Source: Ignavibacteriota bacterium (GTDB lineage: Bacteria > Bacteroidota > Ignavibacteria > SZUA-365). From it: a stretch of 47,319 bases of DNA. The translations under genes and the position numbers were made by a program. Numbering within the stretch: the first letter of the stretch is position 1; every line of letters begins with the position of its first letter. Positions 1-37,767 of this stretch are shown here, piece after piece. The stretch covers positions 1-47,319 of the forward strand of contig JACRFB010000021.1 of assembly GCA_016218045.1 (NCBI GenBank), written 5' to 3'. The notes below the pieces were generated by a model. That model did no database searches. It was given only the letters and a program-made list of their open reading frames with translations, and was not told the origin of the DNA.

Positions 1-200
1 GGACAGCGGGACAACGAAATGGTGTCTCGCTGAGCGGAGTCGAAGCGCGACGGGACAGCGGGACAACGAGACAGCGGGACAACGAAATGGTGTCTCGCTG
101 AGCGGAGTCGAAGCGCGACGGGACAGCGGGACAACGAGACAGCGGGACAACGAAATGGTGTCTCGCTGAGCGGAGTCGAAGCGCGACGGGACAGCGGGAG
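1..200. repeat. 68-bp tandem repeat, about three units
   Basis: Three near-identical 68-bp units; the string AACGAAATGG recurs at 13, 81 and 149. Each unit combines the octamer-like GGGACAGC motif with one copy of the dispersed hairpin (22-51, 90-119, 158-187). The same composite occurs again at 29340-29481. The array is cut by the window edge, so its full length is unknown. No coding potential is apparent. Confidence 0.9.
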
Positions 201-2859: not shown

Positions 2860-4560
2860 TCAGAAGCGCACGCTGATGTCGGTGAACAGGCGCGCGGTGG
2901 CGCCGCTGCTTTCCCAGGCCTGTTCGAAGCCGGCGGTGCCGAAGACCACGCGGCCGATGCGCGCGTAGAGGTCGATGCCGAGAGTCGAGCGTGTGATGGC
3001 GCGCGCGGGTGATGTGAACGAATACGAAAAGGTCTGCACACGCACCGACAGCGTCAGCGCCTGGAGTATCTCGCGGTTCAGCTCGAAACCGACGGAACGC
3101 GATGTGCTCAGGATGTTGTCGGCGATGGAGGCGTTTGCGTAGAGATTCGTTTCGGACGACAGCACGTCGGCCCAGGTGTACCGCAGCGACAGCGCGTTGG
3201 CCGTGCCGGCTTCGCCGTCACGCGCGCGCAACGATCCCGTGGCCGACACAAACATCGCCATCGGCAGATTCACGCCCGCGCTCACCTGCGTGTCGTGCTG
3301 CCGACGCTTGTCGAAACTGCTGTCGGGGATTGCGCCAAAGCTGCGCAGGTAGTACACGTTGCGTCGCGAGGCCACCGAGCCGTTTAACGACAGCCAGCGC
3401 AACGCCCGCCAGCTCGCGGAAAGGAAGATGTCGCTGAGATGCGGCGACGAGGCGACACCCTGCGGCGCGCTGTCGTACATGTCGATGGAGGCGTTCTGGT
3501 ATATCGAGATGCCCTCGGCGAACGCGAGGGTGTTCTGCAGATAGATGAAACCGCGGTCGAGCGCGCCGCCTTTGTAGGTCTGCGCAAAAGCCGCGCCGCC
3601 CTGATATCGCGTGCTCTGCCAGTCGCCCCGCGTGTACGACACAAACAGGGCGGCCTTAGGGTCGTCGGTGTTGACTTCTGATTCGCGGTAGCCGGGTTGT
3701 GATCCGGCCGCGATACCCGCTTCCCAGCCGGCGCTGCGGCCGATCATCATCGCGCCGTCGAAGGTGCCGACGCCGCCGACCTGCGGCGCAAGGAAACGTC
3801 CGAGTGTCGCGGAGAAGGGCGCGTCCATGCCGCCGTATTCGGCCGCGAGCTGGAAGATGCGGTTCGTCAGACGCGCACCTGCGTTGCTCGAGCGCAGCGC
3901 GGCGTCGCGCGCGTCGTAGCGGTGATTCGAGTACAGGGTGAACTGCAGGGGCAGCGCGAAGAGATGGTCCGCCGAGAACTGAAGCGAGAGCGCGGGCTGG
4001 CTGAAGGCGAGCGCCGTCGTGCCGCTGCCGCGCAACGCGTAGTATTGCACTGAGACCCTTCCGCGCACGGTGTTGTCGGCCGGTGCCTCCTGCCGTGGGC
4101 GCTGCGCGAGAGGGGATGCCACGGCGGGGATCGTCTGTGTACCACCCGCGCGGGTTGTGTCGTCTCGCACCGTCCCGGCGGCCGCGGTGTCGAGCGGGAC
4201 GCGCGGACGCATGTCGGGCGCTGCGCGACGCGGTGTCCCGTCCACCTTGTCGCCGTCCGCCAGTGGACCGTTCTTCACCAGTATACGCGTCGCCATCGAC
4301 CGCGACGACACGCTGGTCACCACCAGCACCGCCAGCGTTGTTTCCTTCTTTGTCACGCGTAATGTGTCGCCGACATCGAAACCCTGATTGGTGCCCATAC
4401 TGACGTACACGGACGCGCTTGTCACATAGGTGATCTCACCCGACACCCGTGAGGGCTGCGCAGCGGCGCGCGTGGCGAACAGCACACACAGGCACACAAC
4501 CGGGAAGACGCGGCGCGCGTATCGTGCCGCGCGCCGTGCCGGTATCGCAGGAACCCGCAT
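2860..4560 (-). CDS. outer-membrane beta-barrel protein, putative porin partner of the multiheme cytochromes
   Basis: The 566-residue protein begins with a basic N-region and a hydrophobic signal peptide cleaved near residue 35 (ATRAAAQ). Residues about 38-108 look like an SH3-like, FlgT-type domain (SVYVSMGTNQGFDVGDTLRV ... LADGDKVDG). A Pro/Thr/Arg-rich linker follows. From about residue 165 to the end there are many alternating amphipathic strands rich in Tyr, Phe and Ser, and the last residue is Phe after DISVRF, as in beta-barrel proteins inserted by BAM. The start codon lies 2 nt after the stop of the giant cytochrome gene, so the two are translationally coupled. By position it may be the pore of a porin-cytochrome conduit, analogous to MtrB/OmbB, but I see no clear sequence similarity to those families. 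Confidence 0.75.
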   Translation of the reverse strand: MRVPAIPARRAARYARRVFPVVCLCVLFATRAAAQPSRVSGEITYVTSASVYVSMGTNQGFDVGDTLRVTKKETTLAVLVVTSVSSRSMATRILVKNGPLADGDKVDGTPRRAAPDMRPRVPLDTAAAGTVRDDTTRAGGTQTIPAVASPLAQRPRQEAPADNTVRGRVSVQYYALRGSGTTALAFSQPALSLQFSADHLFALPLQFTLYSNHRYDARDAALRSSNAGARLTNRIFQLAAEYGGMDAPFSATLGRFLAPQVGGVGTFDGAMMIGRSAGWEAGIAAGSQPGYRESEVNTDDPKAALFVSYTRGDWQSTRYQGGAAFAQTYKGGALDRGFIYLQNTLAFAEGISIYQNASIDMYDSAPQGVASSPHLSDIFLSASWRALRWLSLNGSVASRRNVYYLRSFGAIPDSSFDKRRQHDTQVSAGVNLPMAMFVSATGSLRARDGEAGTANALSLRYTWADVLSSETNLYANASIADNILSTSRSVGFELNREILQALTLSVRVQTFSYSFTSPARAITRSTLGIDLYARIGRVVFGTAGFEQAWESSGATARLFTDISVRF

Positions 4561-4562
4561 TG

Positions 4563-7500
4563 TTACGGTTCCCTCCCGTCGGGATGGCAGCCGCTGTTGG
4601 CGCAGGCGGTGCAGTTGTACGTGTAGCCGCTGACGCCCTGATGATCACCGTTCAGACTCGACTGATTGTTGTGACAGCCGGTGCAGCAGAAGGTGCTGGT
4701 GACGTTGGTGGTGTGGCACTGGTTGCAGTTGGACCAACGGTTCGGGTACGCGTGTTTTGATCCCGTGTATATCGGGAATCCCGTCGGCGCGTTCACGTTG
4801 TGTGATGTGCGGAACGGCGTCGCGGGCGACCATGCGGTCTGCGTGTGACAGGTCGTGCACGTGTGGCTGAGGTTCAGAGCGGAGTGATTCGCCGGAGTCG
4901 TCGCGCCGGTGAAGTCCGACTGATGGCATTGCCAGCAGCCCGTGTACGTCAGCGAGTAATTGCCGTTGATGTGGCAGTCGGCGCAGGGTTTGCCGATGTG
5001 TGCGCCCGCCAGCGGGAAGGCGGTGTTGGCGTGATTGAAGGTGGATGGTTTCCACGCGCTCTGCGTGTGGCATTGTGTGCAGGTGTGCGAGAATTGCGCC
5101 GTCACGTGGTTCGGATTCGTCACAGATTGATAGTCGCTCTGATGACACTGCCAACAGTCGGTGTAGGTCAGCGTGTAATTGCCGTTGGTGTGACACGCGT
5201 TGCACGGCTGTGCCTGATGCGCTCCCTGCAGCGGGAAGTTTGTCGCGGCGTGTGAAAATGTCGACGGCGTCCACGTGATCTGTGTGTGGCAGGTGAGGCA
5301 GGTCGTCGGGAATTGATTTGTCACATGCGCGGGATTGGTCGTTGAATTGTATGCGGACTGATGGCAGGTGATACAGCCGGAATACACGAGCTGGTAATTT
5401 CCGCCGACATGGCAGTCCTGGCAGGGCTTCGATTGATGCGCGCCCTGCAGCGGGAAGGCCGTTGTGGCGTGGTCGAAGGTGGCCGGTTTCCACGCGGACT
5501 GCGTGTGACACGAGAGACAGTCGTGGCTGAACTGTCCGGCGCTGTGACTCGGATTTGTGGTCGCGTTGAATGTTGTCTGATGGCACTGCCAGCAGTCCTG
5601 ATACTTCAGCGTGTAATTGCCGTTCACATGGCATTGCTGGCAGGGGACGGCCACATGTCCGCCCTGCAGCGGGAACGCGGTGCTGTTGTGGTTGAATGTC
5701 GACGGTTTGTACGAGATCTGTGTGTGGCACTTCAGACAGTCATGGCTGAATTGACCGGCCACATGATCCGGCGTTTTGGTCTGCTGGAACGAAGTGCTGT
5801 GGCAGGTGTAACACCCGGTATAGGTGAGCTGGTAATTGCCGTTGATGTGGCAGCGCTCGCAGGCCAGCGGCGTGTGCGCCCCCTCGAGTGGGAAGGCCGT
5901 GCTGCCATGGCTGAATGTGGCGGGTTTCCAGCCGTTGCTGCTGTGGCACTTCGTACAGTCGTTCGGGAATTTGCCCGCGGTGTGATCGGGATTTTTCGCG
6001 TTGACAAAATCGGTGTTGTGGCACTGCGCGCAGTCGGTGTAGGTGAGCTGGTAGTTGCCGTTCACATGGCAGCGTTCACACGCGACTCCCGTGTGTTTGC
6101 CGCTCAGAGGGAAGCGCGTTTTGTTGTGGTCCAGCACCGACGGTTTCCACGCACTGGTGGTGTGGCAGATGGAGCAATCGTGCGAGAACTTGCTCGACAC
6201 GTGATTGGGCGTCAGCGCCGTGTTGAACTCCTGAGTGTGGCACGCAAAACAATCCGTGTACTTCAGCGTGTAATTGCCGTTTGTGTGGCAGCTCTGGCAG
6301 GGCTCGGTCTGATGTCGGCCCGTGAGCGGGAAGGCGGTCGCGGCGTGGTCGAAAGTCGCGGGTTTCCAAGCGGTGTTCGTGTGGCAGGTCTTGCAGTCGC
6401 GCGGGAAGCCTCCGGCCGTATGGTCGGGCTGTTTCGCGCCCGAAAAATCCTGCTGATGACACTGCAGGCAGTCGGTGTATTTCAGCGTGTAGTTGCCGTT
6501 TGTGTGGCAGCTCTGGCACGGGACCGTGTTATGCGCGCCCTCGAGACGGAAATTCGTGCTTGTGTGATCGAACGTCGAGGGCTTCCAAGCCGAGACGGTA
6601 TGGCACTGCTGACAGTCGCGCGGGAATTGTGCAGTGCTGTGATTCGGGGCGGTGGTGGCGTTGTAGTCGGAGAGATGGCACTGCGCGCAGTCGGTGTACG
6701 TGAGCGAGTAATTCCCGTTGATATGGCACGACTGGCAGGGCTCGGCGCTGTGCGCTCCGGTCAGCGGGAATTTTGTTGTCGCATGGTTGAAAGTGGACGG
6801 CTTCCACGCGCTCACGCCATGACATTTGGTGCAGTCGTGATCGAAGCGCGCGGCGGTGTGATCGGGCGTGCGTGTCGCGGTGAAGTCGCGCTCGTGACAC
6901 TGGAAACAATCAGTGTAGGTGAGTGTGTAATTGCCGTTGACGTGGCACGACTGGCAGGGCTCTGCGCGATGCGCGCCCTCGAGCGGAAACTTTGTCGTTG
7001 TGTGATCGAAGCTCGCGGGTTTCCATCCTGCGGTGGTGTGGCAATCCTGGCAACTGTGCGGGAACTGTCCCGTGGTGTGATCGGGATTGCGTGTCTGCTG
7101 GAAGGTGGTCTGATGGCAGGTGAAACAGTCGGTGGGCAGCGGCACGCCATACTGTCCGTTGGTATGGCACTTCTCGCAGGCAACGGTGCGGTGCAGGCCT
7201 GTGAGCGGGAATCGCGTGCGGTCGTGATCGAGGCGTGTGGGTTTCCATGCGTCGACGCCGTGGCACATGGTACAGTCGTGGTTGAACTGGCCCTGCACGT
7301 GATTCGGCTGCGTCACTCCCGTGTAGTTCTTCTCGTGACACGACCAGCAGTCGGTTGCCATGCCGCTGTACTTGCCGTTGATGTGGCACTGTTCACAGGC
7401 CGCGGTTTTGTGTTTGCCGAGCAGCGGGAATCGTGTGTTGTCGTGGTTCACGGTCGAGGGTTTCCACGCTGCGTTGCCGTGGCAGCGCGTGCAGTCGTGA

Positions 7501-9623
7501 TCGAACTGCCCCGAGACGTGGCTGGGTGTGACAACGGCGTCGAAGTCCTTTTTATGGCAGGACCAGCAGTCCATGGGCGTGCCGGTGAACACGCCGTTTG
7601 TGTGGCAGTCCTGGCACGGAGCCGCGGTGTGTGCACCCTGCAGCGGGAAACGGGTGGTGGCATGGTCGAACAGCGCGGGTTTCCACGCGGTCTCGGAGTG
7701 GCATTTCCAGCACTCGCGCGGGAACTGCCCGGCCTTGTGATCGGGCGCCGTCACCTTGTCGTAATCGGGTTGGTGGCAGCCCGCGCATTCGAGAGGTCTG
7801 CCCGTGTATGCTCCGGCGGGATGGCAACTTTCGCAGGGCACCGCGGCGTGCGCGCCACGCAGCGGGAACTGCGTCTTGGCATGGTCCAGTGTCGCGGGCT
7901 TCCACGCGGTTTCGGTGTGACAGCGCGTGCAGTCGTGCGGGAACTGCGCCTTCACATGCGCGGGCTGCAGCGACGCGGTGTAGTCCTTCTCGTGACACTG
8001 CCAGCAGTCGGTGTAGGCGAGCCGGTAGTTGCCGCCCACGTGACAGTTGGCGCATGGCACGGTGCTGTGCGCGCCGCGCAGCGGAAACTTGGTGCTGCCA
8101 TGATCGAAGGTCGCGGGTTTCCAGCCGGCCATGGTGTGGCAGGAGAGGCAGTCGTGTTCGAACATTCCCGCCGCGTGATCGGGATTTGTGGCTCCCCGGA
8201 AATCGCGCTCATGACAGACGAAACACTCGGTGGGTGTGCCGCCGAACACCTTGTTCACATGGCAGCGGTCGCAGGCCACCGCGGCGTGCGCTCCCTCGAG
8301 CGGGAAACGCGTGCGGTTGTGATCGATGCTGCGCGGCATTGTTTCGACGGGCTGCCAGGCGGTGGTGTTGTGGCACAGCGCGCACTGCCGCGTGAAACCG
8401 ACCTGGTCGTGTTTTGGTTTGCTGGTCTGAAGGAAGTTCTGTTCGTGACAACCCTGACAGTCGAGCGGCAGGCCCGAGTATTTCCCGCCGATGTGGCATT
8501 TCTCGCAGAAGGTCTGCCGGTGCGCGCCCGTGAGCGGAAAGTTCGTGTTGTCGTGTTTGAAGGCGGCCGGCTTCCACGCGGTGAGTGTGTGGCAGTCGGT
8601 GCACTGCTGCGAGAACTGCCCCTGCGCGTGATTCGGGAAGGTCGTGCCGCGGTAGTCGTTCTGATGGCAGCTCCAGCAGTCCTTCGGCAGCTTGCCGTAG
8701 CCGCTCGTGTGGCACTGTGCGCAGGGTGTTGCGGCATGCGCGCCCTGCAGGGGGAAGCCGCTTTTGTTGTGGTCGAAACGCGCTGGTTTCCAGTGCACCG
8801 GATCATGGCACACGGTGCAGTTCCGGTCGAAACTGCCCGCAGCGTGATCGGGCTGTTTTACCGATGCGTAGTCGCGCTGGTGACAGCCGTAGCAGTCGGT
8901 GGGTGTGTTCCGATACCCGGAGGTGTGACACTGGCCGCAGGCGAGCCGCAGATGCGCGGGTGTGCTCATGAAGGGCACGGGCGGATGGGTGAAACTGCCG
9001 CTCCATGACCCTGCCGCGGCATCGTGGCAGCGCGCGCACTGATGGTCGAAATTGTTCTTGGCGTGATCGGGTTCACCCACGGCCGCGTACTCGGCCTTGT
9101 GGCATTCATAACAATCGGTGGGTGTCCCCGCGTACTCGCGTGTCTGCTGTGTCGCATGACACGCAGCACAGTCGGCCGCGGCATGCGCGCCGAGCAGGGG
9201 GAAACGTGTGAGCTGATGTTTGGCCACCTGCTCGTTCGGCGCGCGCCATCCGGCAGGCGTGTGACAGTCGCGGCAGCGGTTGCCGAACTCGCCCTTGTGG
9301 AAATCCTTGTGGCAGGACAGGCAGTCCTTTTTCAGATCCTTGAATGACACGGCACCATGGCACGAGGCGCAGGGCACGGACGCGTGTCGCCCGTTGAGCA
9401 CGTAGCCGGTGAGTTTGTGATCAAATTCGGCGGATTTTTTGATCGTCTTCCACGACTCGGTGGTGTGACAATTCATGCACGGGATGCCGAAACTGCGATG
9501 TGGACTCGCACCCGCGGGTGTCTGCGCCGCCGTGCGAACCGACAGCAAAAAGGAGCCGAGGAGGAGTATCCCCAGCGCCGTCAGGGCGTATGTCCGCAAG
9601 TGTGCCGTACCTTTCCTCGTCAT
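4563..9623 (-). CDS. giant periplasmic/exported multiheme cytochrome c with 66 CXXCH motifs
   Basis: The 1686-residue product has a signal peptide (about 1-34, ending SVRTAAQ). I count 66 CXXCH heme-attachment motifs: 4 in an N-terminal segment, 60 in 20 consecutive units of about 73 residues with three motifs each, and 2 near the C-terminus, plus one CX4CH (CANSGCH). Each unit has the order CXXCH, DCXXCH, a PDH, CXXCH, AWKP-FDH, then T-FPL-GAH. The three extra histidines in PDH, FDH and GAH could be the distal ligands, making all hemes bis-His. Units resemble the paired-CXXCH/cytochrome c3-C7 superfamily. The ATG at 9623 follows a GAGGA Shine-Dalgarno; an upstream ATG at 9749 would add a non-signal leader overlapping the previous gene. 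Role inferred: long-range electron wire between inner membrane and the downstream barrel. Substrate unknown. Confidence 0.92.
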   Translation of the reverse strand: MTRKGTAHLRTYALTALGILLLGSFLLSVRTAAQTPAGASPHRSFGIPCMNCHTTESWKTIKKSAEFDHKLTGYVLNGRHASVPCASCHGAVSFKDLKKDCLSCHKDFHKGEFGNRCRDCHTPAGWRAPNEQVAKHQLTRFPLLGAHAAADCAACHATQQTREYAGTPTDCYECHKAEYAAVGEPDHAKNNFDHQCARCHDAAAGSWSGSFTHPPVPFMSTPAHLRLACGQCHTSGYRNTPTDCYGCHQRDYASVKQPDHAAGSFDRNCTVCHDPVHWKPARFDHNKSGFPLQGAHAATPCAQCHTSGYGKLPKDCWSCHQNDYRGTTFPNHAQGQFSQQCTDCHTLTAWKPAAFKHDNTNFPLTGAHRQTFCEKCHIGGKYSGLPLDCQGCHEQNFLQTSKPKHDQVGFTRQCALCHNTTAWQPVETMPRSIDHNRTRFPLEGAHAAVACDRCHVNKVFGGTPTECFVCHERDFRGATNPDHAAGMFEHDCLSCHTMAGWKPATFDHGSTKFPLRGAHSTVPCANCHVGGNYRLAYTDCWQCHEKDYTASLQPAHVKAQFPHDCTRCHTETAWKPATLDHAKTQFPLRGAHAAVPCESCHPAGAYTGRPLECAGCHQPDYDKVTAPDHKAGQFPRECWKCHSETAWKPALFDHATTRFPLQGAHTAAPCQDCHTNGVFTGTPMDCWSCHKKDFDAVVTPSHVSGQFDHDCTRCHGNAAWKPSTVNHDNTRFPLLGKHKTAACEQCHINGKYSGMATDCWSCHEKNYTGVTQPNHVQGQFNHDCTMCHGVDAWKPTRLDHDRTRFPLTGLHRTVACEKCHTNGQYGVPLPTDCFTCHQTTFQQTRNPDHTTGQFPHSCQDCHTTAGWKPASFDHTTTKFPLEGAHRAEPCQSCHVNGNYTLTYTDCFQCHERDFTATRTPDHTAARFDHDCTKCHGVSAWKPSTFNHATTKFPLTGAHSAEPCQSCHINGNYSLTYTDCAQCHLSDYNATTAPNHSTAQFPRDCQQCHTVSAWKPSTFDHTSTNFRLEGAHNTVPCQSCHTNGNYTLKYTDCLQCHQQDFSGAKQPDHTAGGFPRDCKTCHTNTAWKPATFDHAATAFPLTGRHQTEPCQSCHTNGNYTLKYTDCFACHTQEFNTALTPNHVSSKFSHDCSICHTTSAWKPSVLDHNKTRFPLSGKHTGVACERCHVNGNYQLTYTDCAQCHNTDFVNAKNPDHTAGKFPNDCTKCHSSNGWKPATFSHGSTAFPLEGAHTPLACERCHINGNYQLTYTGCYTCHSTSFQQTKTPDHVAGQFSHDCLKCHTQISYKPSTFNHNSTAFPLQGGHVAVPCQQCHVNGNYTLKYQDCWQCHQTTFNATTNPSHSAGQFSHDCLSCHTQSAWKPATFDHATTAFPLQGAHQSKPCQDCHVGGNYQLVYSGCITCHQSAYNSTTNPAHVTNQFPTTCLTCHTQITWTPSTFSHAATNFPLQGAHQAQPCNACHTNGNYTLTYTDCWQCHQSDYQSVTNPNHVTAQFSHTCTQCHTQSAWKPSTFNHANTAFPLAGAHIGKPCADCHINGNYSLTYTGCWQCHQSDFTGATTPANHSALNLSHTCTTCHTQTAWSPATPFRTSHNVNAPTGFPIYTGSKHAYPNRWSNCNQCHTTNVTSTFCCTGCHNNQSSLNGDHQGVSGYTYNCTACANSGCHPDGREP
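4930..9200. repeat. approximately 219-bp tandem repeat inside the giant cytochrome gene, 20 units
   Basis: At the DNA level the cytochrome gene is a satellite of about 219-bp units, visible for example as ATTGCCGTTGATGTGGCA near 4960 and its near copy near 5178. Units nearest the 3' end of the gene (lower coordinates) are most alike, with NGNY-L-YTDC in nearly every copy. Units near the 5' end (higher coordinates) diverge and have shorter forms such as GTPTDC. This gradient suggests recent tandem expansion towards the C-terminus. Confidence 0.85.
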
Positions 9624-9700
9624 GGCGGTCCTCGTAATTCTGGATGCAATGGAGTGAAAATATCCATTTATTGTGTCGCCGGTGAGGGGAAAAGTATTCC

Positions 9701-11389
9701 TCATTGCATTTTTTTCTCTGTGTCGGATGCCGGATGACAGGTTGCGCAATCCGGATCGATGGGTTTGTAGCGCACAATGCCGCCGGATTCACCGGCAGTG
9801 GCTCGGTGACAGGCGGAGCAGGCAAGCGCCGCGTGGCGCCCGTTGAGCTGGAAACGCGAGTCGCGGGTGTGGTCGAAGGTGCTCGGTTTCCATTCACCGG
9901 TGCTGTGGCAGCGTTCGCAGGTCACGGTTCCGTTCACAACAAACTGTCCGCCGTGCGGATCGGTGTGGCAGCTCGCGCAGGTGATGCTGTCGAAGGTGAA
10001 GCGGCGTGTTTGCGCGCCGCCTATTTCCACGCTGCCGTGGCACTTGTCGCAGGGCACGGCCAGGTGTTTGCCGCGCAGGGGGAAGTCGGTCGCGGCATGA
10101 TCGAATTCCATCGAGTGCCAGCTCGCGGTGCTGTGGCAGCCGTTGCAGGCGCCCTTGTCGGGACGTTTCAGGAATTGTCCCGCGTGATAATCGCTGTGAC
10201 AGGATGTACACGCGAGGTCGGTCCAGCGGAATCGCCGCACGGGTGTGCCGTCTCGAGTCTCCGTTGTGTGACAACGGTCGCAGGCCACCGCGGCATGTGC
10301 GCCTTCGAGGGGGAATCGTGTGGTGGCATGGTCCGGCTGCTCGAAGCGCGAGGGGTGGAAACCGTCCACCGTATGGCATCGTGAACATTCCGTGCCGCCT
10401 CGCGCCTGGGCGAATTGCCCGGCATGCGCGTCCGCATGGCACAGCAGGCACGATCCGAGTTCCTTGTTGCGGTATTTCGCGATATCTCCGCCAACGTGAC
10501 ACTTGGCGCAGGCCAGCGACGCGTGCCGGCCTTGCAGCGCGAAGCGAGTCTTTGAATGGTCGAACCCCGCGTTCGAGGACAGGCGTACGGACTTCCAGCT
10601 CTCCGGCGTGTGACACTGTGCGCAGTCCTTCCCGAACTGCCCCTTGTGTTTGTCTTCGTGGCAGTCGCCGCACGTTTTGAAGGCGAGTCCGTGTAATTTC
10701 ATGGCCGCCATGCCCGTGCCCGTGGCTCCCGGCAGGGGAGGATGGCATTTTGTGCAGGCCACGTCGGCATGTTTTCCAAGCAGAGGGAAACGTGCGCGGG
10801 AATGTGTGAAGCTGTTCTGCTTCCAGTCCGCGGGCGTGTGGCAGCGCGCGCAGTCGCTGCCGAGCTGTCCGGCGTGTCCGTCGGTATGGCAGTTGATGCA
10901 CGCGGGTTCGAGGCCCAGGTATGTGCGCTGCTTCGCCGCCGCGCTCTTGCCGCGGATCTCCTTCTGCACAATGTTTTTTGGGATGTGGCAGGCGCGGCAT
11001 TCCTTTCCGGCATGTTTTCCAACGAGTTCAAAACCCGCTTGCCGGTGATCGAATTTTGCGGGGTCCCAACGGATCAGCTTGAAGTCGCGTCCGTGATGTT
11101 CCTTGTGGCAGGCCGAACACTCGAGTTTTTTTGTGAAGGCGTGATACCCGAGTCCGCGCTCCACACGTGAACGGATCTCCGCATGACAGGCGAGGCAGTT
11201 GACGCGCACGCTCTTGTCGCCGAAGTTATGGCACTTCGCGCAGTCGTTCACTCCGTCGAGTGCAGCGTGAACGGTTGAGAGTTTCCCTGGTGAAACGAGC
11301 TGGCTATGCAGCGTTGGCGCGTATCCGGCCAGCAGGAAAGCGAGCAGAACCGCCGGCAGCGGTCGCAGAGTTATATCGGATCCGCGCAT
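9701..11389 (-). CDS. 20-heme cytochrome c
   Basis: The 562-residue protein carries a signal peptide (PAVLLAFLLAGYAPTLHSQ) and 20 CXXCH motifs that I can count. Several segments share the FDH-x-FPL-G-H-x-CXXCH spacing of the giant cytochrome encoded next, so the two are probably related; others have an alternative HADAHAGQF / HEDKHKGQF spacer between motifs. I placed the start at the ATG at 11389, directly before the signal peptide and 7 bp after the upstream gene's stop; an ATG at 11434 would overlap that gene by 38 bp. It is likely a periplasmic electron carrier between the membrane protein encoded upstream and the giant cytochrome 77 bp downstream. No catalytic domain (nitrite, sulfite or hydroxylamine reductase) is recognisable. 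Confidence 0.9.
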   Translation of the reverse strand: MRGSDITLRPLPAVLLAFLLAGYAPTLHSQLVSPGKLSTVHAALDGVNDCAKCHNFGDKSVRVNCLACHAEIRSRVERGLGYHAFTKKLECSACHKEHHGRDFKLIRWDPAKFDHRQAGFELVGKHAGKECRACHIPKNIVQKEIRGKSAAAKQRTYLGLEPACINCHTDGHAGQLGSDCARCHTPADWKQNSFTHSRARFPLLGKHADVACTKCHPPLPGATGTGMAAMKLHGLAFKTCGDCHEDKHKGQFGKDCAQCHTPESWKSVRLSSNAGFDHSKTRFALQGRHASLACAKCHVGGDIAKYRNKELGSCLLCHADAHAGQFAQARGGTECSRCHTVDGFHPSRFEQPDHATTRFPLEGAHAAVACDRCHTTETRDGTPVRRFRWTDLACTSCHSDYHAGQFLKRPDKGACNGCHSTASWHSMEFDHAATDFPLRGKHLAVPCDKCHGSVEIGGAQTRRFTFDSITCASCHTDPHGGQFVVNGTVTCERCHSTGEWKPSTFDHTRDSRFQLNGRHAALACSACHRATAGESGGIVRYKPIDPDCATCHPASDTEKKMQ

Positions 11390-11396
11390 CCTGTTC

Positions 11397-12398
11397 TCAG
11401 AATATCCACTTGTATCCCAGCGAGACGGTGACACCCACGTGAATCGCGAGAATCACGAACATGATGATCGCAAAGGGCAGATGTATGACGTGCCAGTAGT
11501 GGAAGATTTCACGCGCGCTGTCGAGGAAGGCGATGCGCCGCTCGAGTAGGGAGCGCTTCCGCGCCACCCGCATGATGGCGGCTGCGCGGTCGTGCTCCAC
11601 GCCGCGCTCGCGGAGGTGTGCACGCAATGCGCGTGTGCGCAGCCAGCGGGTAGAGTCGTCCCTCAACACGGCGAATAATGCGCGGAGTACGCTCGTGTCA
11701 CTCCGGCGTATGGTGTTTAAGCCGTCGATCCAGGCCATGGTGGCTGCGTCGAGTCCGTAGGTGTTCTGCAATTCTTCGCGCAGGGCCTCGTCCTCGGCGG
11801 CAAGTTCGTCCATGCCGCGCTCGTTGCCCTCGATGGTGCGCGGAATCTGGGTGTACACGTAGCGGCCGAGCAGTCCGCTCAGCGCCACGAAGATCATGCT
11901 CCACGCGGCGATCGAAACGAGTCCGCCGAACTTGAATGTGGTGTGGAGAAGCACCAGGGACGGGCCGAGCAGGCAGAGGAATATGTGCGCCTCGAGCCAG
12001 TGACGGATCTTGCCCGCGAAGCGCAGGCGCCTCAGCCGTTTGCGCGTCGAGTACATCGCCACACCGACGGTCATCATCAGCGATCCGATCACGCCAAGAC
12101 CGTGCCCGATCGGACCGCCGGCCTGCCAGTCGAGCCAATAGCGGAGCTGCGCTCCGAGACGCTCCTTCTCCGCAAGCAACTCCGCCTCCGATTTTTCGGA
12201 GGAACTCAGTCCTTGCGCGCGCATCTCGAGTTCGACGTCGATTTCGGACATTTTCGAGTCGAGATCCGCTTCGAGTACGTCGATTTCGCTCTGCGGGGTG
12301 ATGAAGTAGCGGAAACCCTGGTATCCGTACCACGATGTTGTAACGATACCAAGCGTAAAAAGGGAAACGATCCAGATCCGATGCACGGATGGAGACAT
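11397..12398 (-). CDS. polytopic His-rich membrane protein, possible b-type cytochrome / quinol oxidase module
   Basis: The 333-residue protein has about five hydrophobic helices: one near the N-terminus (IWIVSLFTLGIVT), a coiled charged stretch (about 38-85), then GHGLGVIGSLMMTVGVAMY, AHIFLCLLGPSLVLLHTTF, IAAWSMIFVALSGLLGRYVY, a soluble charged region (about 185-285) and a final YWHVIHLPFAIIMFVILAIHVGV helix. Histidines in helices two, three and five are placed as heme b ligands might be, which would suit electron transfer from menaquinol to periplasmic cytochromes. I do not recognise a named family, so this role is inferred from context: it is the first gene of the cytochrome cluster. The start was set at ATG 12398; an ATG at 12473 would add 25 residues reaching the edge of the upstream repeat. 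Confidence 0.7.
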   Translation of the reverse strand: MSPSVHRIWIVSLFTLGIVTTSWYGYQGFRYFITPQSEIDVLEADLDSKMSEIDVELEMRAQGLSSSEKSEAELLAEKERLGAQLRYWLDWQAGGPIGHGLGVIGSLMMTVGVAMYSTRKRLRRLRFAGKIRHWLEAHIFLCLLGPSLVLLHTTFKFGGLVSIAAWSMIFVALSGLLGRYVYTQIPRTIEGNERGMDELAAEDEALREELQNTYGLDAATMAWIDGLNTIRRSDTSVLRALFAVLRDDSTRWLRTRALRAHLRERGVEHDRAAAIMRVARKRSLLERRIAFLDSAREIFHYWHVIHLPFAIIMFVILAIHVGVTVSLGYKWIF

Positions 12399-12477
12399 AG
12401 TGTCTGGCGTGTTGTGGCGTGAATAATTCGCGAAGCGATCATACAGTATACGAACTCTGAACCGGATTTCCATCAGC

Positions 12478-12615
12478 GGGATAGCGGAAGAGCGGGACAG
12501 CGGGACAGCGGGAGAGCGGGACAGCGGGACAGCGGGAGAGAGGGACAGCGGGAGAGAGGGACAGCGGGAGAGAGGGACAGCGGGAGAGCGGGACAGCGGG
12601 AGAGCGGGACCTGTT
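12478..12615. repeat. octamer array (GGGACAGC / GGGAGAGC)
   Basis: About 17 consecutive 8-bp units alternate between GGGACAGC, GGGAGAGC and GGGAGAGA. The array sits in the divergent gap between the cytochrome cluster and the iron-sulfur flavoprotein gene. Related octamer tracts lie at 1-200, 2815-2860, 29315-29520 and 47181-47198. Confidence 0.9.
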
Positions 12616-12622
12616 CACAAAA

Positions 12623-12726
12623 TTCACCTTCCACTTTCCACTTTTCACCTTCCACTTCACACCATATATCTTCCACTCTTCACAATCCATCTTTCATCTT
12701 TCATTTTTCACCTTCTACCTTCAGAA
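12623..12726. repeat. heptamer array (TTCACCT / TCCACTT)
   Basis: From 12623 the sequence divides cleanly into 7-mers: TTCACCT, TCCACTT, TCCACTT, TTCACCT, TCCACTT, then degenerate members including TCCACTC, TTCACAA, TCCATCT, TTCATCT, TTCATTT, TTCACCT and TCTACCT. One strand is almost pure pyrimidine plus A. It fills the promoter side of the gene at 12771. A possible -10-like TATATA lies just after it (about 12734-12739). Confidence 0.85.
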
Positions 12727-12770
12727 TTCTGTTATATATTCCCACTTTCACAATCAACCCGGTCTGCGTC

Positions 12771-14108
12771 ATGGAAAGCTTCTTCATTTTTCTCGTTTTT
12801 GTGATTTTGGTTTTTGCCACAGTCATCCCGTATATGCGGGTGGTGAAACGCAAGGAGGCCAAGGCGCGAGAGGCAGCCGGTCTCGGAGCGCTGCACAGCA
12901 GCGGACCCCGCGCGCAGCACCCGCGCATCGATATCAGTCAATGTATCGGCTGCGGCGCCTGTGTGGACGCCTGCCCCGAGGGTGATGTGCTGGGTGTGAT
13001 CGCGGGCAAGGCCGCCATCATAAACGGTCACAAGTGTATCGGGCACAGTCTCTGCGCGGACGCCTGCCCGGTCGGCGCCATCACCATCGTCATGGCGTCG
13101 CCCAGCATCGGCGCCGATATGCCGCAGCTCACGGAGGAATTCGAGACCAATGTTCCCGGTATGTATATCATCGGCGAACTCGGCGGTCTCGCCCTTGTGA
13201 AAAATGCGGTGAATCAGGGCCGCGACTGTATCGACGGCATACATCGTCGGCTCGAGAGTACAGGTCGGACGGGCGGTGCGGACGTCGCCGATGTGTGTAT
13301 TGTCGGAGCCGGACCGGGAGGTATCTCGGCCTCTCTCCGCGCCATCGAAAATAAACTCTCGTATGTCACGCTCGAACAGGACGAGCTGGGCGGCACTGTT
13401 GCCAAGTATCCACGGCAGAAGCTCGTGATGACGAGTCCCGTCGAATTTCCCCTGCACGGCAAATTCCGCAAGCTGGAGCTGAGCAAGGAGGAACTTCTCG
13501 CGTTCTGGCATGAGGTCGCCGCGAAGTCGGGTCTCGAGGTGCGCACACAGGAGCGTGTCGAAACGATACACCGCGACGACGCGGGCATCTTTACCATCCG
13601 CAGCATAAAGGGCGAATTCCGCGCGCGCACCGTGGTTCTGGCACTGGGCCGCCGCGGTACGCCGCGCACACTCGGCGTCCCGGGTGAGCAGCTTCCGAAA
13701 GTGATGTACAGTCTCATCGAGGCCGACGCGTACACACATGCGCGCATCCTCATCGTCGGCGGAGGTGATTCCGCCGTCGAGGCGGCCATGGGGCTCGCAC
13801 ATCAAAAGGGGAATCAGGTCACACTCTCGTACCGGAAGGACGCATTTTCGCGCATCAAAGAAAGAAACACGCAGAGGATCAAGGAGTGTATGGATAACGG
13901 GACGGTGCGTGTGCTCTTCGAGTCCGCCCCGGTCGAAATCACCGAAACAGCCGTGCTTCTCGACATCAACGGGCGGCCAGAAACGCTGGACAACGACTAT
14001 GTGTGGATTTTTGCCGGCGGTATTCCGCCCAACGACTTCCTCACCAGCGTCGGCATCGTACTCGGACCGCGCGACATGACCAGGGAAGCCCAGAACGCAT
14101 TGCTTTAA
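12771..14108 (+). CDS. membrane-anchored ferredoxin-domain FAD/NAD(P) oxidoreductase
   Basis: The 445-residue protein has an N-terminal membrane helix (about 4-24), then a ferredoxin-like domain with cysteines C58, C61, C64 and C68 (CIGCGACVDACP) and a second set C89, C95 and C99 in which the expected second cysteine is His92 (CIGHSLC). A two-dinucleotide-fold flavoprotein follows: GAGPGG near residue 182 for FAD and GGGDSA near residue 329 for NAD(P)H, with the ALGRRGTPR segment between. There is no thioredoxin-reductase CXXC, so it resembles the YpdA-like branch fused to a ferredoxin. It probably moves electrons between NAD(P)H, its clusters and a membrane partner. Being divergent from the cytochrome cluster, it may be the cytoplasmic entry point of that chain (inference). 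Confidence 0.8.
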   Translation: MESFFIFLVFVILVFATVIPYMRVVKRKEAKAREAAGLGALHSSGPRAQHPRIDISQCIGCGACVDACPEGDVLGVIAGKAAIINGHKCIGHSLCADACPVGAITIVMASPSIGADMPQLTEEFETNVPGMYIIGELGGLALVKNAVNQGRDCIDGIHRRLESTGRTGGADVADVCIVGAGPGGISASLRAIENKLSYVTLEQDELGGTVAKYPRQKLVMTSPVEFPLHGKFRKLELSKEELLAFWHEVAAKSGLEVRTQERVETIHRDDAGIFTIRSIKGEFRARTVVLALGRRGTPRTLGVPGEQLPKVMYSLIEADAYTHARILIVGGGDSAVEAAMGLAHQKGNQVTLSYRKDAFSRIKERNTQRIKECMDNGTVRVLFESAPVEITETAVLLDINGRPETLDNDYVWIFAGGIPPNDFLTSVGIVLGPRDMTREAQNALL

Positions 14109-14242
14109 GAGCCGGGATCAGGGGACTACTCCGGCCGGACCCGGGCCAAACCGCTGCGTTTTCCGCGTCCTGCTTTCTCGAGCCGGTCCCGGGGATATTT
14201 CCACCGCTGCAGCGGCTCTTTACAATAATTCGTCATTTTTCA

Positions 14243-14271
14243 TTGCATCTTTCCCATCCGACGGGTATATT
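14243..14271 (+). promoter_or_regulatory. sigma70-like promoter of the nusA-infB operon
   Basis: TTGCAT (14243-14248) and TATATT (14266-14271) are separated by exactly 17 bp, both four or more matches to consensus. It lies about 40 bp before the rimP start and is the only strong promoter match in the 204-bp gap after the flavoprotein gene. Assigned from sequence alone. Confidence 0.6.
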
Positions 14272-14312
14272 GGTGTTCTGTAAATGTGGGGCAATCCCGC
14301 ATTTTTGTTTAT

Positions 14313-14783
14313 ATGGCCCTCGAGATGCGTAAAGAGATCGAAAAAGGAATCGAAAAAATCATTCACGAACACGGCGCCCTGCTCGTGTCCATGGACTGGC
14401 AGAAGGAAAAGGGCGGCGAGGTGTTGTCGGTGGCCGCCGACACGCTGGACGGCATCACCATCGATCTGCTGAGCCGCATCACTCAATCTGTGCTGCCCCT
14501 GCTGGAAGAGCATCCCGAATTGGCCGAGAGCGTCCGGCTCGAGGTTTCCTCGCCGGGTCTCGACAATACGCTGCGTTTCCCCTGGCAATACAACCGCCAC
14601 AAGGGGTACGAAATGCAGGTGGTGTATCTCGACGGCGCGGTCGAAACATCGATCGAGGCCGTCTGTGAAGGCGAACACGAGGGCGTTGTCTCGCTGTCGA
14701 AAGGCGGCAGGACGCTCGAAATACCATGTGCGAATATTCGCAGCGCCCTGGTGCGCGCGAGTTTGAAATCGAAAAAAGTCTGA
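14313..14783 (+). CDS. rimP: ribosome maturation factor RimP
   Basis: The 156-residue protein is RimP, needed for 30S subunit maturation. Key evidence is the family motif VRLEVSSPGLDNTLRFPWQYNR (central, shown here by its SSPGLD core), the preceding helix with ITQSVLPLLEE, and a C-terminal Sm-like beta domain (EGVVSLSKGGRTLEIPCANI). The ATG at 14313 was chosen; a GTG at 14286 or an ATG at 14325 are alternatives. It opens the operon and precedes nusA by 37 bp, the usual order in bacteria. Confidence 0.92.
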   Translation: MALEMRKEIEKGIEKIIHEHGALLVSMDWQKEKGGEVLSVAADTLDGITIDLLSRITQSVLPLLEEHPELAESVRLEVSSPGLDNTLRFPWQYNRHKGYEMQVVYLDGAVETSIEAVCEGEHEGVVSLSKGGRTLEIPCANIRSALVRASLKSKKV

Positions 14784-14820
14784 CACGCAACGATCGTCAA
14801 GCGGAGGAATACCGGATTCC

Positions 14821-16134
14821 ATGAGCAGCAAGGCAGTAAAAAAGGAAAAAGAGGCCGAACGGAGATCGGATATAGTCGATTCGTTCAGCCAGATGGTTCG
14901 CGAGAAAGGCATCGATCGCGACCGCCTTTCGTCCATAGTCGAAGACATTTTCGGCATGATGGTGCGCAAGCGCTACGGCGCCGATGCGAACTTCGAAATC
15001 ATCGCGAACATGGAGAAGGGGGAGATCGAAATCTTCCTCATCCGCCAGATCGTCGAAACGGTCGAGAATCCCGCGATTGAAATCGACGTCGCCACCGCGC
15101 GCGAAGTGTCGGGCGAGGATCTGGATGTGGGCGAGGAACTGGTCGAGGTCATTCCCCTCGACGATTTCGGCCGCCGCCTCGTTTCCACCGCGAAGCAGAA
15201 CCTGAACCAGCGCATCAAGGAAATCGAGAAGGACCTCATCTACGACGAGTACTCCGAGAAAGTGGGAGACATCGTTGTGGGCGACGTGTATCAGGTGCGC
15301 AAGAACGACGTGCTGATCAACCACAACCGCACCGAACTCCTCCTCCCCAAGAGCGAGCAGATCGGCAAGGAACGCTACCGCAAGGGCGACGTGATCCGTT
15401 GCGTGATCAAGGACGTGCAGCGCAAGGGCAGCGGCATGCCGGTGGTTGTCGTCTCGCGCGCCGACAAGCTCTTTCTCCAGAAACTGTTTGAACACGAGAT
15501 CCCGGAAGTGTACGACGGCATCATCTCGATCCGCAAGATCGCCCGCGAGCCGGGCGAGCGCGCGAAGGTGGCCGTGCAGTCGCACGACGACCGCATCGAC
15601 GCCGTCGGCGCATGTGTCGGCATGAAGGGCGTGCGCATCCACTCGATCGTGCGCGAACTCAACAACGAGAACATCGACGTCATCAACTTCACCGAGGACC
15701 CGCAGCTCTTCATACAGCGCGCCCTCGCGCCGGCCAAGCTGCTCGAAGTGCGGCTCGACAAGATCTCGCGCGTGGCGAAGGTGCACGTGAATCCCGATCA
15801 GGCCTCGCTCGCGATCGGACGCAACGGACAAAACATCCGCCTCGCGTCGGAACTGACGGGCTTCAAGATCGAGATCGTGAAGGAAGGCGAGGAACCCGCC
15901 ACCACCGCGCTTGACGAATACGAAATCGAACTCGACGAATTCGTCGACGATTTCGGCGCCGAACTCATCGAACGCTTCAAAACCGCGGGCTACCGCACGG
16001 CGAACGATGTGATCCAGGCCCCGGTCTCGGAACTTCTCTCGAAGATTCCCGGCATGACCATCGAACAACTCAACGACATCGTCGTCGAAATGAAAAACGC
16101 CTTCAACGAAGAAGGATCGGACGATTCCGAATAG
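14821..16134 (+). CDS. nusA: transcription termination/antitermination factor NusA
   Basis: The 437-residue protein has the NusA domain order: an N-terminal RNA-polymerase-binding domain (about 10-130), an S1 domain (about 145-210, from GDIVVGDVYQV to GDVIRCVIKDV), and two KH domains (about 230-355, including DDRIDAVGACVGMKGVRI and QASLAIGRNGQNIRLA). A short C-terminal helix-hairpin module (about 375-430) follows an acidic stretch. It modulates pausing, termination and antitermination. A GGAGG lies 13 nt before the ATG. Confidence 0.96.
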   Translation: MSSKAVKKEKEAERRSDIVDSFSQMVREKGIDRDRLSSIVEDIFGMMVRKRYGADANFEIIANMEKGEIEIFLIRQIVETVENPAIEIDVATAREVSGEDLDVGEELVEVIPLDDFGRRLVSTAKQNLNQRIKEIEKDLIYDEYSEKVGDIVVGDVYQVRKNDVLINHNRTELLLPKSEQIGKERYRKGDVIRCVIKDVQRKGSGMPVVVVSRADKLFLQKLFEHEIPEVYDGIISIRKIAREPGERAKVAVQSHDDRIDAVGACVGMKGVRIHSIVRELNNENIDVINFTEDPQLFIQRALAPAKLLEVRLDKISRVAKVHVNPDQASLAIGRNGQNIRLASELTGFKIEIVKEGEEPATTALDEYEIELDEFVDDFGAELIERFKTAGYRTANDVIQAPVSELLSKIPGMTIEQLNDIVVEMKNAFNEEGSDDSE

Positions 16135-16170
16135 CAGGATCACGAAGAATTAGGCAGGACGTCGCAACGC

Positions 16171-19053
<2,883 letters not shown>

Positions 19054-29314: not shown

Positions 29315-29520
29315 CCGGACAGCGGGAGCGGGACAGCGGGACAGCGGGACAACGAAATGGTGTCTCGCTGAGCGGAGTCGAAGCGCGACGGGAGAGCGGG
29401 ACAGCGGGACAGCGGGAGAGCGGGACAGCGGGAGAGCGGGACAGCGAAATAGTGTCTCGCTGAGCGGAGTCGAAGCGCGACGGGACAGCGGGACAGCGGG
29501 ACAGCGGAACAGCGGGAGAG
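29315..29520. repeat. octamer array with two dispersed hairpin copies
   Basis: GGGACAGC/GGGAGAGC octamers enclose two copies of the hairpin element with the GGAG-type loop (29360-29389 and 29452-29481). The composite is nearly the same as the 68-bp repeat at 1-200. It separates the T9SS gene start at 29189 from the 102-bp repeats. No gene is visible from 29190 to 29809. Confidence 0.85.
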
Positions 29521-29809
29521 CGGCCGAAGGCCGCAGGAAAAAACCTCCGTTGCCTCCGTTCCTCCTGTGTGCTTTTTTCTACGCGCACCACCCTATCGTG
29601 CGACAGCGGGGTAGCGGGAGAGCGGCCGAAGGCCGCAGGAAAAAGCCTCCGTTTCCTCCGTTCCTCCTGTGTGCTTTTTTCTACGCGCACCACCCTATCG
29701 TGCGACAGCGGGGTAGCGGGAGAGCGGCCGAAGGCCGCAAGAAAAAACCTCCGTTTCCTCCGTTCCTCCTGTGTGCTTTTTTCTTTGCGCACCAGCCGCG
29801 CCCTGCGTC
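29521..29809. repeat. 102-bp tandem repeat, three units (family B, inverted)
   Basis: GGCCGAAGGCC recurs at 29522, 29624 and 29726, giving an exact 102-bp period. Each unit contains the perfect hairpin GCGGCC-GAA-GGCCGC, the pyrimidine block CTCCGTTTCCTCCGTTCCTC and a short octamer tract. The third unit is cut off at the 3' end of the PagL-like gene. One further copy, in the other orientation, lies at 2758-2859. Confidence 0.9.
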
Positions 29810-34203: not shown

Positions 34204-34232
34204 GTGTCACCCCGAGCTTGTCGAGGGGCGAC
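34204..34232. repeat. dispersed hairpin element, TTG-loop type
   Basis: GTC-A-CCCC pairs with GGGG-C-GAC around GAGCTTGTCGA. Relative to other copies the stem has changed from CGCT/AGCG to CCCC/GGGG on both sides. It introduces the repeat at 34249. Confidence 0.7.
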
Positions 34233-34248
34233 GGAACGTGTCACAAAA

Positions 34249-34605
34249 CACAGGAGGAACGGAGGAAACGGAGGTTTTATAAACGCGCGTTGCCGCCATG
34301 CTGTAGCGCCACGTGCCGTTCCCGCGGGCTCGGCCGCTGTAGGAACGTGTTACGTGGATACGTGTCACCACAAAGCTGTGTCAACCCGATCCGCCGCTGG
34401 CGGACGAGGGGCGACGGAACGTGTCACAAAGCACAGGAGGAACGGAGGAAGCGGAGGTTTTATAAACGCGCGTTGCCGCCATGCTGTAGCGCCATGTGCC
34501 GTTCCCGCGGGCTCGGCCGCTGTAGGAACGTGTTACGTGGATACGTGTCACCGCAAAGCTGTGTCAACCCGATCCGCCGCTGGCGGACGAGGGGCGACGG
34601 AACGG
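34249..34605. repeat. 183-bp tandem repeat, two units (family A)
   Basis: CACAGGAGGAACGGAGGAA occurs at 34249 and 34432, giving a period of 183 bp. Each unit runs through GGTTTTATAAACGCGCGTTG, a GC-rich palindromic part and GTTACGTGGATACGTGTCAC, and ends in a larger hairpin (34378-34415 and 34561-34598) with the inner stem TCCGCC-GCT-GGCGGA. Inverted, shorter relatives lie at 37105-37700. The short frames inside are repetitive and not convincing genes. The gap 34176-34709 holds nothing else. Confidence 0.9.
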
Positions 34606-37104: not shown

Positions 37105-37700
37105 GTTCCTCCTGTGCTGTGACACGGTGACACGTAACACGTATCCACGTAACACGTACCGACAGCGCGGCCCGCGGGAACGGCACGTGGTGCAACGACA
37201 GAGCGGCAACACGCGTTTATAAAACCTCCGTTTCCTCCGTTCCTCCTGTGCTGTGACACAGTGACACAGTGACACAGTGACACGTAACACGTATCCACGT
37301 AACACGTACCTACAGCGCGGCCCGCGGGAACGGCACGTGGCGCAACGGCACATCGGCAACACGCGTTTATAAAACCTCCGTTTCCTCCGTTCCTCCTGTG
37401 CTGTGACACAGTGACACAGTGACACGTAACACGTATCCACGTAACACGTACCGACAGCGCGGCCCGCGGGAACGGCACGTGGCGTAACGGCAGAGAGGCA
37501 ACACGTGTTTATAAAACCTCCGTTTCCTCCGTTCCTCCTGTGCTTTTGTGATACGGTGACACGTAACACGTATCCACGTAACACGTACCGACAGCGCGGC
37601 CCGCGGGAACGGCACGTGGCGTAACGGCAGAGAGGCAACACGCGTTTATAAAACCTCCGTTTCCTCCGTTCCTCCTGTGCTTTGTGACACGGTGACACAG
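37105..37700. repeat. family A tandem repeats, inverted, about five units with variable octamer spacers
   Basis: TTCCTCCTGTG recurs at 37106, 37240, 37390, 37532 and 37669, with intervals of 134, 150, 142 and 137 bp. The differences of 8 and 16 bp come from one to three extra copies of the octamer GTGACACA. Each unit otherwise matches the reverse complement of the repeat at 34249. No credible gene lies between 37049 and 37767. Confidence 0.9.
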
Positions 37701-37767
37701 TGACACGTTTTGTTCCAACCGCAATGAGCAGTATTTTCCACAATTACGGTAAACGGCATCGATCCTC

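Follow-up and report, generated by a model that had tools for sequence, protein, structure and literature searches.

OmcS, OmcE and OmcZ filaments are polymers of small 4-8-heme subunits. Such long heme chains have been proposed to serve extracellular transfer (review, PMC12954529). The GSU1996-type c7 polymers of Geobacter (PDB 3OV0, PMC10138318) carry tandem triheme domains in one chain, as does the cytochrome described below, and have been proposed to act as a wire or capacitor. Closest in gene content to the locus examined here are the PCC3 clusters. The inner-membrane proteins of PCC3 and PCC4, as described by He et al. (2017, PMC5566968), have two HX13H motifs, with a W in the fifth transmembrane (TM) helix, and an SGXXG signature, and are proposed to hold two b hemes in the manner of ferric reductase or NOX. 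In PCC3 this protein has about 300 aa and five TM helices, of which TM3 and TM5 bear HX13H and TM4 bears SGXXG (PMC5566968); the periplasmic cytochrome has 21, 24 or 27 hemes, and the distal one a median of 34 and up to 85 (PMC5566968, PMC10734462).

We analyzed a stretch of 47,319 nucleotides from an Ignavibacteriota bacterium, referred to here as the window. The window probably encodes a complete PCC3-type trans-envelope electron conduit, and we hold the functional part of that statement, that the gene products conduct electrons, with moderate confidence.

The variable cytochrome and its triheme units

An open frame on the minus strand (9623-4563) encodes a multiheme cytochrome of 1686 aa, running from a Met to a single terminal stop. 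A recount of its heme motifs gave 66 CXXCH (4 + 20x3 + 2) and one CX4CH, CANSGCH, the same numbers that the earlier note had reached by eye; composition-matched shuffles of the protein had a mean of 0.95 CXXCH and a maximum of 4 (2000 shuffles). Behind a signal-peptide-like N-terminal segment, hemes 1-4 form a head, hemes 5-64 form 20 triplets, and hemes 65-66 and the CX4CH lie in a tail of the form GYxYxC...GCHP. Heme spacing repeats as 16/25/32 aa, and the units, described previously as being of about 73 residues, are exactly 73 aa long in 15 of 20 cases, with a range of 72-86. The three further His attributed to each unit are also present: PDH and FDH occur in 20/20 units and GAH in 19/20, unit 20 having a shifted SKH instead of the GAH His. 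The ligand order in each unit is HH-C1-C2-H-C3, with no Met. When 23 four-unit segments, taken from the window and from relatives, were aligned, 11 of the 12 non-motif His proved invariant and the twelfth was conserved in at least 90%.

Pfam Cytochrome_C7 matched the full open frame at 7.5e-63. NCBIfam matches on the repeats (RelE_StbE, Stx subunits) were judged to be composition artefacts of a Cys/His-rich sequence. A four-unit AlphaFold2 model of the array was weak (pLDDT 67.6, pTM 0.30), and from this weak input neither Foldseek nor VIA-align returned a PDB match. Because the prediction is weak, we infer the linear packing and the heme distances of the array.

A repeat array of this size might have arisen as an artefact of assembly, or the gene might be decaying and yield no product. 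Some relatives are indeed broken within the repeats: contigs end there in G005 and G006, and there is an in-frame TAG inside a heme motif in G013 and a frame change in G001 (L046 12884-17983; L048 12480-16797), either of which may be sequencing error or real decay. For the window we consider such an explanation very improbable. A break of the reading frame, which the earlier note had named as a point to check, was not found in the window sequence; the frame is intact over 1686 codons and all 66 motifs are perfect. At the DNA level no two of its units are more than 67% identical (a difference of 33% or more) and no exact internal repeat is longer than 26 bp, making assembly collapse unlikely. 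Intact frames with 58, 64 and 82 hemes are also found in three other genomes.

With regard to heme attachment, contig C41 of the same genome has neighboring matches to the ResB and CcsA families, and additional Cytochrom_C_asm matches lie on contigs C10 and C14, so the cytochrome c maturation system on which the earlier note made its reading depend is present. Other contigs of this genome (L042, L043) carry multiheme cytochrome genes with 5, 11, 4 and 13 CXXCH. The heme number itself, which had been implied to be unique, is exceeded by 82 in a relative, by the 85 of PCC3 (PMC5566968) and by a 113-heme cytochrome of Candidatus Methanoperedens (PMC7327174), and we therefore dropped any claim to a record size.

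The five-gene set and its spread

The cytochrome gene belongs to a conserved set of five, comprising a b-type inner-membrane cytochrome, an FeS/FAD oxidoreductase of NAD(P)H type, a constant cytochrome, the variable cytochrome and a predicted 22-strand barrel. The constant cytochrome (9701-11434, minus strand) has 577 aa and 20 CXXCH, with an uncertain start codon, and is predicted to be a periplasmic or membrane-spanning partner. Its gene is overlapped by that of the b-type candidate (11397-12473, minus strand), in which five TM regions can be recognized by eye. By hydropathy scan, three relatives have five segments each and the window frame has four, its first segment falling below threshold. 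In alignment, the starts of relatives coincide with Met26 (coordinate 12398). The candidate carries WX3HX13H at residues 159 and 327 (W159, W327) and SGXXG at 199. Two HX13H and SGXXG are present in 80/80 homologues. The extended form WX3HX13H is likewise found on TM5 in all 80, and on TM3 in 59 of them. Elsewhere in the genome (G000:C50:18139-18843) a further copy of the b-type protein is encoded, a distant one with 28% identity.

The outer-membrane beta-barrel candidate (2860-4560, minus strand) is encoded on the strand of the variable cytochrome, starting 2 bp past its stop. Its 566 aa comprise a strand-rich N-terminal domain (39-108) and the predicted barrel (165-566), modeled by AlphaFold2 with 22 strands, a mean pLDDT of 79.8 and no plug-sized N-terminal domain. 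By VIA-align the best hit to TonB-receptor barrels had Z 19.6 over 353 residues at an rmsd of 4.0; among the matches listed, most were TonB receptors, Occ porins and ushers, and MtrB was not among them. Sequence searches with the barrel and the b-type cytochrome gave nothing credible in PDB, Pfam or NCBIfam.

The fifth gene, for the oxidoreductase (12771-14108), is divergent on the plus strand. The protein has an N-terminal TM-like segment, two ferredoxin-type Fe-S motifs and an FAD/NAD(P)-binding Pyr_redox_3 domain (3.9e-42). We rejected its assignment as a Thioredoxin/YpdA-type reductase and treat these families as domain relatives only, since its scores are below the curated cut-offs (TIGR04018, 166.9 against 339.9; TIGR01292, 72.4 against 343.45). 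In 72/72 sequences scored, the second ferredoxin-type motif reads C-x2-H-x2-C-x3-CP, with His for the second Cys, and many relatives have Ser or Thr at the second ligand position of the first motif; such motifs possibly indicate unusual Fe-S ligation. An 8/16-bp tandem repeat (12474-12610, no strand) lies in the intergenic stretch from which the oxidoreductase and b-type genes diverge. Intergenic tandem repeats also occur through the rest of the window (2-199, 2813-2859, 29317-29794, 34222-34604 and 37119-37708), in the form of related GGGACAGC-like 8/16-bp units and longer units of 68-183 bp. Beyond the cluster lie genes that we take, by eye from their translations, to encode tyrosyl-tRNA synthetase, NusA and IF-2; the five-gene cluster thus stands alone.

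A profile of the b-type membrane protein (A1) recovered 291 relatives in the named genome collection, and 80 loci were kept. Counting the window, all five gene types are present in 51 of 81 loci, nearly all of them in Bacteroidota, and most loci with an incomplete set are either short or cut off by the end of a contig. Within Bacteroidota, broadly defined, the carriers include Ignavibacteria, Kryptonia, Melioribacter, Bacteroidales, Saprospiraceae and Flavobacteriaceae; one bin labeled Calditrichia adds to these. Of 61 related genomes, 13 matched the giant cytochrome and 16 the membrane protein, and the two coincide in place save for weak extra matches and contig breaks. In a phylum-wide draw 43 of 395 genomes had a match to the A1 profile, which in a few was weak. 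For the phylum to which the Calditrichia bin belongs the figure was 24 of 40, with the same gene set in most of the stretches read there. The position of the flavoprotein gene differs between groups: it is divergent in the order to which the window organism belongs, whereas it comes second in many Bacteroidota and at the end in others.

The set is also found in complete genomes. In the cultured type strain Emticicia oligotrophica DSM 17448, plasmid pEMTOL02 (L129) carries a complete cluster at 5713-17511, directly after a ccsA gene, with cytochromes of 23 and 40 hemes. Matches to the b-type protein on proteobacterial plasmids (Methylophaga, Variovorax, Bradyrhizobium) were rejected as members of the same system, being small modules with no porin in the fetched stretch. 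On these plasmids (L130, L131, L132) the module encodes a 2Fe-2S protein, a distant b-type homologue and a short protein like cytochrome c3; DUF1622 or copper genes are sometimes nearby.

Triheme steps and the proposed path of electrons

To compare heme numbers, we counted the distinct His of CX2-4CH motifs in complete variable cytochromes. The number equals 3n+1 in 77 of 80 homologues and ranges from 10 to 82, taking the values 10, 13, 16, 19, 22 ... 49, 58, 64, 67 (window) and 82 (G431), with a slope of 24.3 aa per heme. Two groups make up this count. From 58 deduplicated sequences with the N-terminal signature, two that proved to be the constant cytochrome (L154 6735 and L155 6319) were removed, and 53 of the remaining 56 fit; the 24 complete frames that lack the signature, a group that was not deduplicated, all fit. 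We manually excluded L046 and L048, whose frames are broken, and L147 10436, a constant cytochrome. The three exceptions are L049, which contains N and has a disturbed end, L050 and L067. Strict CXXCH counting weakens the pattern (43/58) because the tails in some lineages use CX3CH or CX4CH. As these sequences are related and not independent, we give counts only and attach no probability to them. The constant cytochrome (n=84) has 20 hemes in 71 cases, 23 in 12 and 19 in one. An 82-CXXCH open frame of 2049 aa, which exceeds the window protein, lies in a Bacteroidota bin (L133 2380-8526) beside a second frame with 25 hemes.

The 3n+1 steps and the constant partner indicate that the length of the variable cytochrome is set by whole triheme units, in line with the earlier proposal that repeat number sets the length. 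On this comparative evidence the unit number appears to be the variable parameter, the distal protein gaining or losing whole triheme units and its partner hardly changing. When units of the window protein are matched to those of G013, a genome from a different family within its order, the best matches of units 1-5 and 17-20 are collinear and those of most of units 6-16 are scrambled. Conservation therefore lies at the ends and turnover in the middle, a pattern that fits termini docking to fixed partners.

These observations bear on whether the giant cytochrome might be a periplasmic charge store, in which more units would mean more stored electrons and not more reach. Capacitor roles have been discussed for large cytochromes (PMC7399161, PMC10734462, PMC10138318), and neither an explicit signal for export to the outside nor a C-terminal sorting domain was recognized in the giant cytochrome, its only N-terminal signal resembling an ordinary signal peptide. 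We nevertheless regard a store as unlikely. A beta-barrel gene is present in 51 loci and absent mainly at contig ends, the partner cytochrome stays constant while only the giant cytochrome gene varies, and the positionally conserved terminal units around a turned-over middle suggest docking at both ends.

In the conduit that we favor, the cytosol-facing FAD/Fe-S protein of NAD(P)H type (12771-14108) would exchange electrons with the two-heme-b membrane protein (11397-12473), which would pass them to the fixed 20-heme cytochrome. That cytochrome would bridge the periplasm and enter or reach the 22-strand outer-membrane barrel (2860-4560), and the 66/67-heme protein would carry charge off the cell surface as a tether-like wire. 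With three hemes per block and His/His ligation possible for them, the reach of this wire would be set by the number of 73-residue blocks. A constant bridge beside a variable distal cytochrome (20/23 as against 10-82 hemes) argues that the bridge spans a gap of constant size and that the distal protein reaches into open space. The modular heme wire of the earlier note is borne out by comparison as far as its modular length is concerned, and its extracellular electron conduction is something we infer from gene content.

We somewhat prefer an outward flow to an extracellular acceptor. Electrons might instead move inward, the 66-heme protein taking them from Fe(II), minerals or partner cells and passing them through the b-type protein and flavoprotein to quinone or NAD(P)+. 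PCC3 has been proposed for Fe(II) oxidizers (PMC5566968, PMC10734462), a flavoprotein facing the cytosol could be used to reduce NAD(P)+, and no sequence feature fixes the direction. We find inward flow rather doubtful, however, given that direct transfer from Fe(II) to NAD(P)+ needs an energy input that no gene of the cluster visibly supplies. The carriers moreover include Ignavibacteria, for which the reported association is with reduction or anode growth: Ignavibacteria with 33- and 40-heme proteins were abundant in anode biofilms, an association and not proof (PMC7399161).

A more specific version of the outward reading is possible, and we put it forward tentatively. Here a split NADPH-oxidase-like pair, made up of the FAD/Fe-S protein and the two-heme-b membrane protein, would couple cytosolic NAD(P)H directly to a covalent heme wire outside the cell. 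The reach of the wire would evolve in triheme steps, and the system would be self-contained, phylum-wide and sometimes plasmid-borne. Hemes in such chains are spaced at about 0.8-1.0 nm. If the proposal is true, the reach at this spacing would be roughly 7 to 80 nm. Across the family, heme chains that are otherwise alike grow from 10 to 82 hemes, three at a time, beside a nearly constant partner, and this natural series amounts to a near-ideal experiment on how wire length affects current, rate and charge storage. One member of the series is available on a plasmid of a cultured type strain, Emticicia oligotrophica. More broadly, Bacteroidota lineages join the organisms with a probable complete electron conduit.

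Comparison with described conduits and heme chains

The long-16-long rhythm of hemes in the window cytochrome is similar to that in the 3ov0 alignment. The two differ in scale and ligation: GSU1996 has four domains only, with one His-Met heme per domain, whereas the window protein has 20 units and no Met ligand. Compared by eye against the 3ov0 sequence, the axial ligand order is HH-C1-M-C2-C3 in GSU1996 and HH-C1-C2-H-C3 in the window, so the protein departs from the GSU1996 arrangement. TIGR04257 (nanowire_3heme, cut-off 40 bits) did not match window protein P0001 and gave 23.9 bits with P0003; it weakly matched 5 of 23 four-unit segments (best E 4.6e-5). With the cut-off not reached and a different ligand order, we rejected membership in the Geobacter c7 polymer family. 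OmcS, OmcE and OmcZ, for their part, are polymers of subunits, whereas the present array is covalent, a single polypeptide of genetically fixed length. The 113-heme protein of Methanoperedens is likewise a single polypeptide with very many CXXCH; it is archaeal and larger, and we liken the two by description only.

The likeness to PCC3 is in gene content and motifs: a porin, a very large repeat-built variable cytochrome, a periplasmic cytochrome of about 21 hemes and an inner-membrane protein some 300 aa long. Both the window and its relatives carry the inner-membrane signature (SGXXG, WX3HX13H). They also have a porin gene beside the cytochromes, in the form of the barrel gene as judged by adjacency and predicted strands. 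For the cytochrome of about 21-27 hemes and the large variable distal one, the corresponding values here are 20 or 23 in 83 of 84 and 10-82, as counts and not as locations.

There are also clear differences. PCC3 is mostly found in Proteobacteria, whereas the present clusters are in Bacteroidota and one further phylum. The barrel is predicted to have 22 strands, compared with up to 42 in PCC3 porins. Extracellular PCC3 cytochromes of Gallionellaceae have 10-18, 26, 28, 29, 33 and 35 hemes, which unlike the distal cytochromes here do not follow 3n+1 (PMC10734462). The conserved FAD/Fe-S protein of NAD(P)H type points to a direct connection with the NAD(P)H pool, while the descriptions of proteobacterial PCC3 consulted mention no NAD(P)H oxidoreductase (PMC5566968, PMC10734462). 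Given this and the larger PCC3 porins, the two systems are not identical. We found no paper describing the present Bacteroidota cluster as PCC3, subscription journals and preprints lying outside the literature searched. The integral flavoprotein of NAD(P)H type, the strict triheme quantization, the phylum-wide spread and the plasmid copy in Emticicia oligotrophica are apparently unreported. Overall, the cluster is a Bacteroidota variant of a PCC3-kind conduit, alike in gene content, layout and motifs.
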